Source of the DNA: a bacterium
GTDB lineage: Bacteria; Lernaellota; Lernaellaia; JACKCT01
Assembly: GCA_019912885.1 (NCBI GenBank)
Contig: JAIOHV010000071.1
Coordinates: forward strand, 1 to 34,117
Length of the DNA: 34,117 nucleotides
Direction of reading: 5' to 3'
The notes below the pieces were generated by a model that was not told the DNA's origin, made no database searches, and saw nothing but the letters and a program-made list of their open reading frames with translations. A program made the translations under genes and the position numbers. Shown one piece after another: positions 10,012 through 33,534 of the stretch (the first letter of the stretch is position 1; each line of letters starts with the position of its first letter).

Positions 10012-10103
10012 ATGGACAATATGGACATCATGGACCCAATGGACCTCTGACAGACGTGCGTGTCCTCCGTGCCTCCCCGGTGTTCTCCGTGCACCGTCGA
10101 GAT
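10012..10103. repeat. 9-bp ATGGACnnn array plus CTCCGTG run between moaC and moeA
   Basis: ATGGAC starts at 10012, 10021, 10030 and 10039, exactly 9 bp apart. It is followed by a CTCCGTGCCTCC / TCTCCGTGCACC run (about 10057-10102), which in the moeA sense direction is a GCACGGAGAACACC purine-rich repeat lying 7 nt after the moeA stop. No gene is visible in 9976-10108. Confidence 0.8.
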
Positions 10104-11380: not shown

Positions 11381-11487
11381 ATGGACGCAATGGACAACAT
11401 GGACAATTATGGACATGATGGACGGATGAAACATTTGAATTCTCCGTGTCCTCCGTGCCTCCTCCGTGCTCTCCGTGTTCCGTCGGT
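11381..11487. repeat. ATGGACnnn array plus CTCCGTG run between moeA and the ArsA-like gene
   Basis: ATGGAC starts at 11381, 11390, 11399, 11409 and 11418 (9-bp period with one 10-bp step). It is followed at 11442-11484 by TCTCCGTGTCCTCCGTGCC and further CTCCGTG units. The gap lies between divergent genes, and any promoters must sit in or beside the repeats. Confidence 0.8.
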
Positions 11488-21828: not shown

Positions 21829-21861
21829 GTCCATCATGTCCATTCGGTCCATCAAGTCCAT
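21829..21861. repeat. 9-bp GTCCATnnn array, four units
   Basis: GTCCAT starts at 21829, 21838, 21847 and 21856. It lies 53 bp after the acyl-CoA synthetase stop, following GCTGGGAGCGCAGGCGTCTC (21789-21808), whose GGGAGCGCAGGC core also occurs in the minus sense just after the lipoprotein stop at 2905. Confidence 0.8.
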
Positions 21862-21960: not shown

Positions 21961-22160
21961 GAGCGGCGATGCCGGGGCGTTGCCGACCGCGCACTCCGCC
22001 CGCCTTCGCTGGCGCTACGGCGTGACTTCGTTTGCGGCCCTGACATCGCGCCGACGACATCGCGCCGGCGTGACTTCGTTTGCGGCCCCGACATCGCGCC
22101 GACGACATCGCGCCGGCGTGACTTCGTTTGCGGCCCTGACATCGCACTTCGCGCCTCGGA
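21961..22160. repeat. Palindromic-repeat relative followed by a 48-bp tandem array
   Basis: 21961-22044 is the inverted sister of the element inserted in the SGNH gene (7218-7296). Its right part then repeats: GTGACTTCGTTTGCGGCC begins at 22022, 22070 and 22118, exactly 48 bp apart, separated by TGACATCGCGCCGACGACAT-like spacers; the third unit decays after ~25 bp. The 477-bp gap 21776-22252 holds these repeats and no credible gene, although a plus-strand frame is open through the array. Confidence 0.85.
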
Positions 22161-22252: not shown

Positions 22253-24067
22253 ATGTCGCGTCGGACGGCTCTTGCCGCCGCGTTCGTTAGCGTTGCGTTC
22301 GTCGCGCTCGCGCTTTTCGCGTTTGCGTCCGTTGCGCTTGCGCAGGATGCGCCCGCAACCAACGGGGGCGGGGCGCAACCCGCCGAGCCCGGAGCCGAGC
22401 CGGCCCCCACGCCCGAGGGCGAGGCCGGACCCGTTCCCGCCGGCGACGGCATTCTCGTCACCGATCTCGCGGCCGAGGAAGGTGTGCCCGAGCCGACGCT
22501 CGAAAACACCTTCAACGCCCCGCTCTGCCCGCCCACCGAGGTCGCGGTCAAGGACGCACCGGACGACGCCGGCGCGGCACTCGTGCTCGCGTGGCGCTCG
22601 TGCCCCGTGCGTTATCAGGAAGTCGATAACTACGTGATCTTCCGCGCGCTCAAGGGCGGCGGCGGCCCCGCGTTCATGCGCGTCGCCCAGGTCGCGGCCG
22701 GCGACGGCAAGGTTGAGGATACGGCCGATGGCAAGGCCGCCCGCGTCTACGAGTTCACCGACACCGGCCTGACCGAAGGCGCGACGTACGTCTATCGCGT
22801 CGCGGCCACCGCGGGCGAGCGCTTCGCCTACGCGTTTGTCGCGACGGACGGCGCGCCGCTCGTGGATGTCGGCCCCATCTCGCCCGTGCGCCAGCAGGTG
22901 ACGACGGACGAGTTCGACAAGCTGCACGGCTCGTTCGCGGGTGCGCCGCCGAAAAACGTCAGCGCGAAGGATCGGCCGAACGACGCGGGCGACGGAATCG
23001 TGGTGACGTGGGAGGCGCCGGACGGCGCCGAGGGTATCCGGGGGCTCGCGTACAATGTCTATCGGGGCAAACTCGAGGACGGACCGTTCACGTTCGTGGG
23101 TCAGGCGGGCGGCGACGAGACGAAATACGTCGATACGAACGCGCAGGATCGCGACGGCGGCCGGCCGCCGTTTTATTACGTCGTCGCGTCGACGAACCTG
23201 ACGGCCGACGGCCTCGCGTTTGCGCCGCAGGTGGTCACCGCGACGGCAAGCGCGCAGTTCGTGAACTTCGAGATGTGGAACTACTTCCTGTTCGCCATCG
23301 TGCTGTCGGGTTTCATCGTCTATTTCATCCAGCACATCAAAAGCGGCAAGAAGTTGTTTGTCCGCAAGATCGCGGGCCTGGAGGCCGTGGACGAGGCTAT
23401 CGGCCGCGCGACGGAGATGGGCAAGCCGGTGCTGTTCGTGCCGGGCATCATGGACATGAACGACGTGCAGACCGTGGCGGCAATGTCGATTCTCGGCCGC
23501 GTTGCGCAGACCGTGGCCGAATACGACACGCGCCTCATGGTGCCGACCTCCAAGAGCCTTGTCATGACGACCGGGCGCGAAACCGTGAAAGAGTCGTACA
23601 TCTCCGCGGGCCGGCCCGACGCCTACAACGAGGACATCGTCACCTACCTGACCGATGAGCAATTCGGCTACGTCGCGGGCGTCAACGGCATCATGGTCCG
23701 CGAGAAGCCGGCGACGATCCTTTACCTCGGCTCGTTCTACGCGGAATCGCTCATCATGGCCGAGACGGGCAACTTCATCGGCGCCATCCAGATCGCGGGC
23801 ACGGCGCAACCGGCGCAGCTTCCGTTCTTCGTCGCGGCCTGCGACTACACGCTGATCGGCGAGGAGCTGTTCGCCGCGTCCGCGTATCTTTCGCACGATC
23901 CCAAACAGCTCGGCAGCCTGAAAGGCCAGGATGTCGGCAAGCTGCTCGGCATGCTCGGCATCGTCTTCGGGTCGCTGTTCGCGACCATCGAGGCGGTTTC
24001 GGGCGCGGGCTGGGCCAAATCGGCCATGCATCTCATCTCGGAACTCTTCCGGCCGGCGGCCGGATAA
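22253..24067 (+). CDS. FnIII-like/DUF6754 membrane protein, first gene of a four-gene operon
   Basis: The 604-residue protein has a signal peptide (to about residue 31, ending ASVALAQD), a Pro/Glu/Ala/Gly linker to ~75, and two extracytoplasmic fibronectin-III-like modules (about 90-215 with YVIFRALKG and YVYRVAAT, and 230-335 with IVVTWEAPDG, YNVYRGK and YYVVAS). One membrane helix follows (340-362, MWNYFLFAIVLSGFIVYFIQ). The cytoplasmic-side domain from ~365 matches what I recall as DUF6754: GKPVLFVPGIMDMNDVQTVA (~388), YDTRLMVPTSKSLVM, YVAGVNGIMVREKPATILYL, ESLIMAETGNFIGAIQIAGT, then hydrophobic LGMLGIVFGSLFATIEAV. GGGGGA precedes ATG 22253. Function is unknown; the layout suggests a scaffold linking an outer sensor/adhesion part to a conserved inner complex. 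Confidence 0.8.
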   Translation: MSRRTALAAAFVSVAFVALALFAFASVALAQDAPATNGGGAQPAEPGAEPAPTPEGEAGPVPAGDGILVTDLAAEEGVPEPTLENTFNAPLCPPTEVAVKDAPDDAGAALVLAWRSCPVRYQEVDNYVIFRALKGGGGPAFMRVAQVAAGDGKVEDTADGKAARVYEFTDTGLTEGATYVYRVAATAGERFAYAFVATDGAPLVDVGPISPVRQQVTTDEFDKLHGSFAGAPPKNVSAKDRPNDAGDGIVVTWEAPDGAEGIRGLAYNVYRGKLEDGPFTFVGQAGGDETKYVDTNAQDRDGGRPPFYYVVASTNLTADGLAFAPQVVTATASAQFVNFEMWNYFLFAIVLSGFIVYFIQHIKSGKKLFVRKIAGLEAVDEAIGRATEMGKPVLFVPGIMDMNDVQTVAAMSILGRVAQTVAEYDTRLMVPTSKSLVMTTGRETVKESYISAGRPDAYNEDIVTYLTDEQFGYVAGVNGIMVREKPATILYLGSFYAESLIMAETGNFIGAIQIAGTAQPAQLPFFVAACDYTLIGEELFAASAYLSHDPKQLGSLKGQDVGKLLGMLGIVFGSLFATIEAVSGAGWAKSAMHLISELFRPAAG

Positions 24068-24079
24068 GGAGGGCGACGG

Positions 24080-24760
24080 GTGTTCGTCAAACGCACGCTG
24101 CCGCTCTGGATCACGTTCGTCGTCGGCACGGTCATCATCCTGTCCAAGCTCTCGCCGAAAACAACGGGGCTGGGCGAGGACTTCACGATTTATTTCGACA
24201 TCATCGCCGTGTTCGCTTTCATCCTCGGCGGCGGCAACCTCGTGAAGATCCACGCGGACAAGCTCTCGAAGATGGGCGCGGGCTGGGGCTATTCGGCGGT
24301 GTGCCTCATCGGATTTTTCGCGACGCTTTTCATCGGCCTGTTCGAGATCGGCCACCCCAAGGGCTGGTCCACGGACCCGACGGCCTCGGGCAGCGCGTTC
24401 AACTTCATCTACGACTACGTCTTCAAGCCGCTGGCGGCGACGATGTTCGCGCTGCTGGCGTTTTACGTCGCGAGCGCGAGCTACCGCGCGTTCCGCGCCA
24501 AGAATCTGGAGGCGACCGTCCTTCTGGTCGCCGCGTTCGTCATCCTGCTCGGACGCACGTTCATCGGCTCGTTCGTCTCATTCTGGACCGAACCCGGAAC
24601 GGGCTTTGGCATCCCGGAGCTCGCCGAGTGGATCATGGACTACCCGAACCGCGCGGGGCAGCGCGCCATCATGATCGGCATTGCGCTCGGCATCGTATCC
24701 ACATCGCTGAAGATCATCCTCGGCATCGACCGCGGCTATCTCGGAAGCGGGCAGGAGTAG
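24080..24760 (+). CDS. Six-helix membrane protein of the DUF6754 operon
   Basis: The 226-residue integral membrane protein has about six hydrophobic helices: LPLWITFVVGTVIIL, FTIYFDIIAVFAFILGGGNL, YSAVCLIGFFATLFIGLF, LAATMFALLAFYVASAS, EATVLLVAAFVILLGRTFIG and RAIMIGIALGIVSTSLKIIL. Charged or polar residues inside or next to helices (GGGNLVKIHADK, GRTFIG) may be functional. The start is GTG 24080 with AAGGAGGG upstream, 12 nt after the previous stop; the next gene is 4 nt downstream. I do not recognise a named family. The tight spacing argues that it forms a complex with the products on either side. Confidence 0.78.
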   Translation: MFVKRTLPLWITFVVGTVIILSKLSPKTTGLGEDFTIYFDIIAVFAFILGGGNLVKIHADKLSKMGAGWGYSAVCLIGFFATLFIGLFEIGHPKGWSTDPTASGSAFNFIYDYVFKPLAATMFALLAFYVASASYRAFRAKNLEATVLLVAAFVILLGRTFIGSFVSFWTEPGTGFGIPELAEWIMDYPNRAGQRAIMIGIALGIVSTSLKIILGIDRGYLGSGQE

Positions 24761-24764
24761 CGCG

Positions 24765-25652
24765 ATGGCGTTTTACGACAAGATCCGCAACATCGACCGC
24801 CGCGTCATTTTCCTTTTGATCGGCCTGTCCGTCGCACTGCCGCTGATCTTCACGATCCGATTCCCGGAATTCCCGACGCCGATGGTCAAGCAGATCTTCG
24901 GGCTTATGGAAGACCTGCCGCCGGGCGCCAAGGTGCTGGTGTCCTTCGATTACGACCCCGCGTCCGAGCCCGAACTGCAGCCGATGGCGACGGCCTGGAT
25001 GCGGCAGCTCGCCGAAAAGCGCGCGAAGATCTACATCATGGCGCTCTGGCCGATCGGCCAGGACATGGCGCGCCTTTCGATCGACGCCCTGAAGCGCGAC
25101 CTCGCGGACAAGGAACGAGAAACCGGCGAAAAGGTGCCGTTCGAATACGGCGTCAACTACGTCAACCTCGGTTTCAAGAGCGGGGCGCAGGGCGTCATCA
25201 ACGTCGTGCTCACCGACTTCGAGAAAATGTACCCGACGGACGCCGCCGGCCAGGCGCTTTCCACGATTCCGCTCATGAAGGAGGCGCGAAGCCTCAAGGA
25301 TTTCGACCTCATCGTGAACATCTCCGCCGGCACGCCGGGCCTGAAGGAATGGATCCAGTTCGGCGCGGACCCGGCGGGCGTGCGTATCGTGGGCGGGAGC
25401 ACGGCGGTGCAGGCGCCCCTGCTTTACCCCTACTATCCCAAGCAACTCTACGGGCTTCTCGGCGGACTGAAACCTGCGGCCGAATATGAAAAACTGATGG
25501 GCGACCGCTACCCGCAGTACGCCGACATTCAAAAGAACAAGGGACGCATCCGCATGGGCGCTCAGGCGGTCGCGCATCTAGTGATCATGGCGTTCATCAT
25601 CATCGGCAACATCACTTTCTTCATCGACCGCCGAAGGGAGCGCTCGCGATGA
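24765..25652 (+). CDS. Bitopic protein with large extracytoplasmic alpha/beta domain, DUF6754 operon
   Basis: The 295-residue protein has an N-terminal helix (about 13-32, RRVIFLLIGLSVALPLIFTI) and a C-terminal helix (about 268-287, HLVIMAFIIIGNITFFI) bracketing a ~230-residue domain. That domain alternates strands and helices: KVLVSFDYDPASEPELQPMA, AKIYIMALWPIGQDMARL, YGVNYVNLGFKSGAQGVINV, FDLIVNISAGTPGLKEWIQF, VRIVGGSTAVQAPLLYPYYP. This looks like a Rossmann-type or periplasmic-binding fold, and the D-Y-D-P turn and GGSTAVQAP segment may form a ligand site; no catalytic motif is evident. GGAG precedes ATG 24765. It ends in a basic tail and overlaps the next gene by 4 nt. Family unknown to me. 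Confidence 0.78.
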   Translation: MAFYDKIRNIDRRVIFLLIGLSVALPLIFTIRFPEFPTPMVKQIFGLMEDLPPGAKVLVSFDYDPASEPELQPMATAWMRQLAEKRAKIYIMALWPIGQDMARLSIDALKRDLADKERETGEKVPFEYGVNYVNLGFKSGAQGVINVVLTDFEKMYPTDAAGQALSTIPLMKEARSLKDFDLIVNISAGTPGLKEWIQFGADPAGVRIVGGSTAVQAPLLYPYYPKQLYGLLGGLKPAAEYEKLMGDRYPQYADIQKNKGRIRMGAQAVAHLVIMAFIIIGNITFFIDRRRERSR

Positions 25653-26512
25653 GCCGCGGACGCATCGTCTTTCTTGTCGCCGGGGGCCTTTTCCTCGCGT
25701 TTCTCCTGTTTCGCTCGGCGACGGGCGGCATGGTTCCGCCCTGGCCGCACACGGTCGAAACGCAGGCGATGGAACCGCAATACAACGAGTTCGGCCTGCT
25801 CGTCGGCGAAAACGCGGTCACGACGGGCGCGACGTCGTGGAAGGGCCCGCTGACGTGGTTTGCCGCGTTCCTGACGCTGTGCATCCTCTCATTCCTCTAC
25901 GACGACAATCCGCTCTACAAGTTCGCCGAGCATCTTTTCGTCGGCGTCTCCGCCGCGTACTGGATGGTGATGGGCTTCTGGACGACGCTCGTCCCGAACC
26001 TGTTCGGCAAGCTGACCCCGAATCTCGTCTCGGGCGTGCTCGAGGGCGTCAAGGACAACACGCCGGAGTGGCATTACGTCATTCCGTTGATCTTCGGCAT
26101 CCTGCTCCTGACGCGCATCTCGGAGAAATTCGGGTATCTCTCGCGCCTGTCGCTCGCGTTCATCGTCGGCACGACCGCCGGCCTGAACTTCGTGCAGTAC
26201 CTCAAGAGCGATTTCATGCTGCAAATCACGCAGACCATCACACCGCTCGTCGCGATCGGCGCCGAGGGCTTCTCGTTCTGGGGCACATTTTCCAACATCG
26301 TGCTTTTTGTCGGCGTGATTTGCGGGCTGATCTACTTCTTCTTCTCGAAGGAGCACACGGGCGTGTTCGGCGCGGCCAGTCGCATCGGCATCTGGGTCCT
26401 CATGATCAGCTTCGGCGCGTCGTTCGGATTCACCGTCATGGGCCGCATCGCGCTTCTGGTCGGCCGCATGGAGTTCCTGCTCCGCGACTGGATGAATCTG
26501 GTCGTGGGATAG
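25649..26512 (+). CDS. Polytopic membrane protein, last gene of the DUF6754 operon
   Basis: The 287-residue protein has roughly seven or eight hydrophobic helices. The first (GRIVFLVAGGLFLAFLLF) is followed by a polar segment of ~45 residues and then LTWFAAFLTLCILSFLYDDN. The stretch PLYKFAEHLFVGVSAAYWMV (about 90-109) is the most conserved-looking part, which I recall from unannotated proteins of several phyla. Later helices include YVIPLIFGILLLTRI, LSLAFIVGTTAGLNFV, IVLFVGVICGLIYFFF and a C-terminal pair around SFGFTVMGRIALLVGRMEFL. ATG 25649 overlaps the previous stop as ATGA. With the other three genes it probably forms one inner-membrane assembly. Confidence 0.78.
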   Translation: MSRGRIVFLVAGGLFLAFLLFRSATGGMVPPWPHTVETQAMEPQYNEFGLLVGENAVTTGATSWKGPLTWFAAFLTLCILSFLYDDNPLYKFAEHLFVGVSAAYWMVMGFWTTLVPNLFGKLTPNLVSGVLEGVKDNTPEWHYVIPLIFGILLLTRISEKFGYLSRLSLAFIVGTTAGLNFVQYLKSDFMLQITQTITPLVAIGAEGFSFWGTFSNIVLFVGVICGLIYFFFSKEHTGVFGAASRIGIWVLMISFGASFGFTVMGRIALLVGRMEFLLRDWMNLVVG

Positions 26513-26515
26513 GCG

Positions 26516-26692
26516 CGTCGTGCCCGTGCCAGTGCCCGTGCCCGCATGGACATCATGGACATGATGGACCGCATGGACCGAATCGGCACGAACCCGTCTT
26601 TCGCGGGCGGCTGACCGCTCGCTCGCCCTTCGCGCACCCGCTACGTTCCGACGCTCGTTCCTCTTTCCCCTTTCGCCTTTCCTCACGCGGCT
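26516..26692. repeat. GTGCCC run, 9-bp ATGGAC array and pyrimidine run after the DUF6754 operon
   Basis: 26524-26545 holds CCGTGCCAGTGCCCGTGCCC, a relative of the GGGCAC hexamer array at 27771. ATGGAC starts at 26546, 26555, 26564 and 26573. GTTCCTCTTTCCCCTTTCGC followed by CTTTCC lies at 26660-26686. No gene is visible in 26513-26759. Confidence 0.75.
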
Positions 26693-26759
26693 CTTTCCAC
26701 ATTCGTCGCGCGACTGGTATCATGCACGCCCTGTTGAAATTTCCGGGAGTGGCGTGGCG

Positions 26760-27557
26760 ATGCGATCCGTTTTTGGCGCGGTTTTTTTTGGCCTGTCGAT
26801 TTTCGCTCTGGCCCTTGTTGCCTTTCCCGCGCCCTCGGTCGCGCAGGATGACGGCGAGTCCGACACAACGGCCAAGGACTACGGCCCCTGGCGGCCGAAG
26901 ACATGCCTGAATATCCAGGCGTTCGGATCGATCCATTGGCTCGATCACTCGGACGTCAACAACTACATCGACAAGGGCGGCGTGGAGCCGTTCGGCGTCA
27001 GCGACGCGGATCCGGAAAGCTACGGCGACCGCGCGACGCCCGTTTTCGGCGCGCGCCTCGGCATGGTGTTCAACAGCTTCGTCGCCGACCTGATGGGGCA
27101 ATATTACAAGCAGTGGCGCGACGGCCCGCACACCGGCGCGACGATCAGCGGCTTCCACCTTCTGTTCCACGTCGGCAAGGACGTCATCCGCACGCCGTTC
27201 CAACTTTATCCCTACGCGGGCATTGGCTGGTCGTACACGAACTTCATCGTCAACGGCGACGATCGGCGCAAGCGCGAGTTCCCGGATTACTCCGGCGCCA
27301 AGACGGGCGTTCCGGGCGACGTGGGCCTCGGCTTCGAGCTGCAAAATCCCGCGTGGACCTCACGCGATCCGAACTACCGCGCGGCGATCAACCTGCCCGT
27401 CTTCCTGCACATCGGCTATCAGGGCGAACTCATCACCTACTTCTGGCAGATCAAGCACGGGCGCCTGGAGCGCGCGGTCCTCGACCGCTTCATGGGCCCC
27501 TACGTGCGCGTTGGCGTCGGCATTGGAAAAGGCACCTACGTGAGGCAGACGGAGTAG
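26760..27557 (+). CDS. Secreted, probably outer-membrane beta-barrel protein, unassigned
   Basis: The 265-residue product has a signal peptide (MRSVFGAVFFGLSIFALALV, cleavage probably after PSVA before QDD). The mature part has alternating strand-like segments with aromatic residues: KTCLNIQAFGSIHWLDHS, FGARLGMVFNSFVADLMGQY, ISGFHLLFHVGKDVI, FQLYPYAGIGWSYTNFIVNG, GPYVRVGVGIGKGTYV. It looks like a small 8- to 10-strand outer-membrane barrel of the OmpW/OmpA-like kind, but no family motif is certain. ATG 26760 is preferred over GTG 26754 because GGGAG (26745-26749) is better spaced. It is isolated from the DUF6754 operon by 247 bp of repeats. A GGAAG-type repeat begins near the stop. Confidence 0.7.
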   Translation: MRSVFGAVFFGLSIFALALVAFPAPSVAQDDGESDTTAKDYGPWRPKTCLNIQAFGSIHWLDHSDVNNYIDKGGVEPFGVSDADPESYGDRATPVFGARLGMVFNSFVADLMGQYYKQWRDGPHTGATISGFHLLFHVGKDVIRTPFQLYPYAGIGWSYTNFIVNGDDRRKREFPDYSGAKTGVPGDVGLGFELQNPAWTSRDPNYRAAINLPVFLHIGYQGELITYFWQIKHGRLERAVLDRFMGPYVRVGVGIGKGTYVRQTE

Positions 27558-27697: not shown

Positions 27698-27765
27698 GTC
27701 CATCATGTCCATGATGTCCATTGTGTCCATGAATTGGAGACCCGCTCCCTGACGGTCGCGGTTCG
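27698..27765. repeat. 9-bp GTCCATnnn array and GACCGCTCC hairpin motif
   Basis: GTCCAT starts at 27698, 27707, 27716 and 27725. It is followed by GAGACCCGCTCCCTGACGGT and CGCGGTTCG (27737-27765), nearly identical to 6188-6216. Confidence 0.8.
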
Positions 27766-33492: not shown

Positions 33493-33534
33493 GTCCATGA
33501 TGTCCATTCGGTCGGTCATGTCCATCCTGTCCGG
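33493..33534. repeat. 9-bp GTCCATnnn array beside the porin-like start codon
   Basis: GTCCAT starts at 33493, 33502 and 33520, with variants GTCGGT at 33511 and GTCCGG at 33529, keeping the 9-bp phase for five units. It begins 2 bp from the ATG, so it occupies the 5' leader of the porin-like gene. Confidence 0.8.

Follow-up and report, generated by a model that had tools for sequence, protein, structure and literature searches.

A conserved four-gene DUF6754 membrane module co-occurs with a long MutL/GlmL-family ATPase and a partner protein in many bacterial phyla

Introduction

The roles known for ASKHA proteins are those of chaperone, scaffold, reactivase, or kinase, and none of these proteins is known to drive a transporter. 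GlmL, the glutamate mutase accessory ATPase (GlmL/MutL; PF13941, NF040745), is thought to be a maturation or repair factor of a B12 mutase. The system described here resembles it through a partner ATPase that matches across the ASKHA core, but this partner is about 600-650 aa long, compared to about 460 for GlmL, and occurs in genomes that lack glutamate mutase, paired with a second, adaptor-like protein (the sandwich protein) and a quartet of membrane proteins (g1 to g4). The sandwich protein in turn recalls the N-terminal barrel-sandwich domain of RnfC (PF13375) and the KOW motif (PF00467), although these matches are weak and all below Pfam cut-offs. The region resembling RnfC is a short part of the protein, and no Rnf genes were recognized in the neighborhoods examined.

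For group II ECF transporters, competition among different S-components for a single ECF module has been proposed (PMC7755397). The likeness is an analogy only, one ATP-using unit common to several membrane modules (PMC7755397); the quartet system has no ABC ATPase and no sequence relation to these transporters, and transport is only putative here. No ABC-type ATPase was recurrent beside the quartet. The first quartet protein, g1, belongs to DUF6754 (PF20539), which is only an unknown-function domain label; among the open-licence papers covered, we found no mention of DUF6754, PF20539, or PF13941. Together, the six proteins appear to form a widespread and apparently undescribed bacterial machine.

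Results and discussion

Four genes and their predicted topology

The window, the whole 34,117-nucleotide stretch of DNA that was analyzed, contains four adjacent open frames on the + strand: g1 (22253..24067, 604 aa), g2 (24080..24760), g3 (24765..25652), and g4 (25649..26512). The four genes and tight junctions reported in a first-pass annotation are real, with gaps of 12 nt between g1 and g2 and 4 nt between g2 and g3, and a 4-nt overlap between g3 and g4. The g1 product, whose gene heads the quartet elsewhere as well, has a signal peptide, an FnIII-like ectodomain, a membrane helix, a DUF6754 domain, and a C-terminal membrane helix. The ectodomain had been described as a double FnIII; one unit was detected by Pfam, below its cut-off (residues 109-189, 22577..22819; PF00041, E=4e-4), while the second had no Pfam match. 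The DUF6754 match (residues 334-581, 23252..23995) scored 404 bits (2e-121) against a curated cut-off of 27 bits, making g1 a member of this family. Hydropathy averaged over about 30 relatives gave two membrane helices for the DUF6754 unit, and its AlphaFold model (pLDDT 91) consists of a membrane helix, six beta-alpha units in a Rossmann-like arrangement, and a second membrane helix. The domain is predicted to be cytoplasmic because g1 has a signal peptide and positive residues follow its first helix.

The same averaged hydropathy bore out six helices in g2, with both ends predicted inside, and a polytopic g4 with six helices in its conserved part, where an SFLYxDNPxYKFAEH motif lies near the first conserved helix. 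For g3, an extracytoplasmic alpha/beta domain of about 230 residues had been proposed; hydropathy placed about 235 residues between two helices (domain at about 24864-25568), and the AlphaFold model (pLDDT 94) showed an equivalent layout, with six beta-alpha units flanked on either side by a membrane helix. This domain is predicted to lie outside, since the charge distribution places both g3 termini inside. By model and topology, the Rossmann-like domains of g1 and g3 would therefore occupy opposite faces of the membrane. One relative of g4 (locus L053, 10950-13265) carries an insertion of roughly 340 residues between conserved helices.

No Pfam or NCBIfam family matched g2, g3, or g4, and no relative of them was found in the literature. 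Profiles of the quartet proteins, built from about 30 relatives each, returned no convincing relative among solved structures in the PDB, so that no quartet member matches a characterized complex, as had been suspected. Likewise, the sandwich protein matched no named family above the cut-offs, none of its relatives has a solved structure, and we found no paper on it. Foldseek searches with the DUF6754-unit and g3 models gave only weak Rossmann-type matches. Of the two folds proposed for comparison with the g3 domain, the Rossmann fold is thus weakly matched, but no periplasmic-binding protein was present among the best 50 PDB matches.

Homology was not detected between the Rossmann domains of g1 and g3 (hhalign probability 1.9) or between g2 and g4 (2.6). 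Because each pair is alike only in the order of its elements, we do not claim an inverted-pair model. Apparent g2-g3 fusions at loci L114 and L122 proved to be upstream frame extensions.

The four genes form an old and conserved unit

Of the 48 DUF6754-anchored places read, 45 had the complete quartet with its order unchanged, although the order among four crowded copies at L114 is partly ambiguous. The three exceptions were two solo DUF6754 copies (L117, L121) and a contig end (L103). The loci read first came from 18 genomes plus four named MAG contigs of acidobacterial, deltaproteobacterial, and GN15 origin, and in these all four genes had the same order and strand. Conservation of this order in other phyla, which the first-pass annotation had put forward for checking, excludes a chance arrangement. 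The four proteins also co-diverge, with Mantel r values of 0.69-0.86 compared to a null maximum of 0.35. We considered whether the genes might be a conserved operon whose products serve separate envelope functions and form no complex, which would fit with our finding no fusion among g1-g4; however, different phyla share the order, tandem paralogous copies keep it too, and the proteins diverge in a correlated way, making this explanation very unlikely.

Several unusual arrangements were also recorded. Divergent quartets at L108 (263-3380) and L109 (1522-4598) keep the gene order beyond the reach of the DUF6754 profile, with all four genes matching weakly, and a further one at L111 (8151-11993) has the same layout, with g2-g4 matching and the first gene not recognized. 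The solo DUF6754 genes (L117, 8095-9243; L121, 7080-8318) lack g2-g4, and both genomes also carry full quartets.

Profile searches detected DUF6754 in 53 of 193 sampled genomes (about 27%), in 105 copies ranging from one to seven per genome. Independent profiles found g3 in 54 and g4 in 55 genomes, both covering all 53 with DUF6754. Most of the DUF6754 genomes (46/53) share no taxonomic rank below the domain with the genome of the window, and all seven sampled genomes of its own phylum carry DUF6754. The sample is a preset one, rich in diderms (Omp85 in 182/193), and one quartet genome, G065, had no Omp85 match.

The DUF6754 domain of g1 had been proposed as the conserved core, and this held: within the quartet, conservation is highest for DUF6754 (median identity 47%, compared to 41% for g4, 39% for g2, and 35% for g3). 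Among relatives, the g1 ectodomain can be almost missing or reach about 670 residues; members nearly free of it have open frames of 253-285 aa, while the membrane parts stay conserved. Since its length is so variable, the ectodomain is not the conserved function. This bears on whether the quartet could be an envelope sensor or adhesion complex, a role proposed in part by the first-pass annotation, in which the FnIII arm or the g3 domain would bind a ligand and DUF6754 would report to the soluble pair described below. The variable ectodomain and the Rossmann-like domains predicted on both membrane faces would suit such a role, but some members do nearly without the ectodomain and no regulator or output gene was recurrent beside the quartet, so we consider it improbable.

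A long MutL/GlmL-family ATPase and a sandwich protein accompany the quartet

At five of the loci read first, two further genes lie near the quartet, encoding a MutL/GlmL protein of ~620 residues and a protein of ~375 residues. In the neighborhoods read, no other family was recurrent beside the quartet, and its neighbors gave no hint of a substrate. The larger protein belongs to the MutL family (PF13941; 1e-128, 388-430 bits, above the Pfam cut-off). It likely binds ATP, given that its ASKHA motifs DCGSTTTK and DIGGATTD are invariant, and we infer that it also hydrolyzes ATP. The smaller protein has a weak RnfC_N barrel-sandwich match, and a divergent relative has a weak KOW match.

The first-pass annotation had considered the assembly self-contained, with no ATPase attached. 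This does not hold across genomes: the long MutL/GlmL ATPase is present in 50 and the sandwich protein in 51 of the 53 DUF6754 genomes, compared to 53 of 53 for both g3 and g4. Fisher tests of co-occurrence with DUF6754 over the 193 genomes gave P of about 2e-41 or less, a value that ignores shared ancestry. The sandwich-protein profile matched 52 genomes in all, the one without DUF6754 being a weak match inside an Omp85 protein. Strong MutL matches were also found in six genomes lacking DUF6754; five have short, canonical GlmL-type proteins (open frames of 455-503 aa), and the sixth, G092 (85% complete), has the long form, which we define by length, together with g4.

The ATPase and sandwich genes adjoin in 32 genomes, with the ATPase upstream in all 32. 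In 22 genomes, DUF6754 has at least one of the two within 4 kb. The pair occurs about once per genome; in the genome of the window it is on another contig (C38), apart from the quartet. Two genomes, G063 and G082, have the quartet without either partner and G013 lacks the ATPase, suggesting that the pair may be dispensable or replaced there.

Some genomes with a separate long-form pair also encode fused MutL-sandwich proteins of 875-1033 aa (L099, 6240-9173; L104, 6881-9979; L105, 7135-10101; L106, 7907-10531; L113, 897-3935). A divergent version of the pair is surrounded by housekeeping genes.

A simple mutase-helper role does not account for the ATPase

As an alternative, the pair could serve a B12-dependent mutase and match the quartet by phylogenetic coincidence. 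Membership of the ATPase in the MutL/GlmL family would fit, as would a weak enrichment of methylmalonyl-CoA mutase (38/53 DUF6754 genomes compared to 71/140 others, P=0.009). However, searches of the 53 DUF6754 genomes left 15 with no methylmalonyl-CoA mutase match, and in 22 the pair neighbors the quartet. Across the 193 genomes, the ATPase did not track glutamate mutase E (PF06368), which was strong only in G083, G112, and G124, each with a canonical GlmL; only G124 carries DUF6754, and its canonical GlmL is separate. Two long-form members scored 242-244 bits in the NCBIfam GlmL equivalog test, about half the cut-off of 475. Judged from these sequence comparisons, the ATPase is not simply an accessory of glutamate mutase or methylmalonyl-CoA mutase; the coincidence is largely refuted and we give it almost no weight.

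A shared ATPase pair may act on the quartet

Gene order, co-occurrence, copy numbers, intact ASKHA motifs, and predicted folds and sides led us to propose that the quartet is the inner-membrane module of a six-protein system, in which the shared pair docks on DUF6754 and ATP changes the state of the module. We assign this reading a probability of about 50%. The soluble pair would dock on the cytoplasmic DUF6754 domain of g1, and ATP binding and hydrolysis would drive, gate, or reactivate the module. The change of state would be passed on by the g2/g4 membrane core, reaching both the extracytoplasmic Rossmann-like domain of g3 and the variable g1 ectodomain, with a single pair serving every module of a cell. 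DUF6754 is the candidate docking site because it is the most conserved part of the quartet and its only large cytoplasmic domain. Such docking is the simplest reading of a pair that is soluble, highly conserved, and about single-copy beside a quartet that is often multi-copy. Median identity falls from the ATPase (60%) and sandwich protein (50%) to DUF6754 and then g4, g2, and g3, a gradient that would follow if a common factor docked on DUF6754. Counting against the six-protein reading are the quartets without the pair in G063 and G082, the missing ATPase in G013, the two solo DUF6754 genes, and the lack of any ASKHA protein known to drive a transporter, and the co-occurrence of pair and quartet could reflect a shared pathway instead of a complex. 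Docking, energy coupling, and any transported or handled substrate are putative.

The main rival is that the pair is a maturation or repair factor, which would load or reactivate a cofactor or state of a quartet that otherwise works without ATP. By analogy with GlmL this is possible, if tentative: the ATPase is a MutL/GlmL family member, one pair for many modules suits a shared factor, and two quartet genomes do without the pair, but searches of Pfam, NCBIfam, and PDB profiles recognized no cofactor-binding motif or known cofactor enzyme in the quartet. A bolder form of the docking proposal is that a complex for transport or for lipid/protein handling is powered by an ASKHA-fold ATPase and not by a motor of the ABC, AAA+, or rotary type, and that several paralogous four-protein modules depend on one shared pair. 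Membrane machines of this kind would be a new class, present in about a quarter of the bacterial families sampled, and we consider this form unlikely.

About 27% of the sampled genomes, from many bacterial phyla, inherit the six genes together. Genes so far scattered as "hypothetical", or carrying a misleading GlmL-type label, can now be treated as a single testable system whose energy source has a name, and the grouping indicates which proteins belong together for co-expression.

Other features around the quartet

An outer-membrane beta-barrel-like gene (26754-27557) follows the quartet in the window. In the first locus set, apart from the window, a single related species has it at this position, and it was rejected as a core part. 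A 48-bp tandem repeat (22018-22145; 2.7 copies, 97% matches) lies just upstream of g1. The period-9 repeat (GTCCATNNN)n has 19 matches in the window compared to 0.12 expected, and about 300 in the genome compared to 0 for a reversed control. Its arrays lie at 2803-2835, 10012-10044, 11381-11423, 21829-21861, 26546-26578, 27698-27730, and 33493-33507, and two of them, in opposite orientations, flank the quartet.
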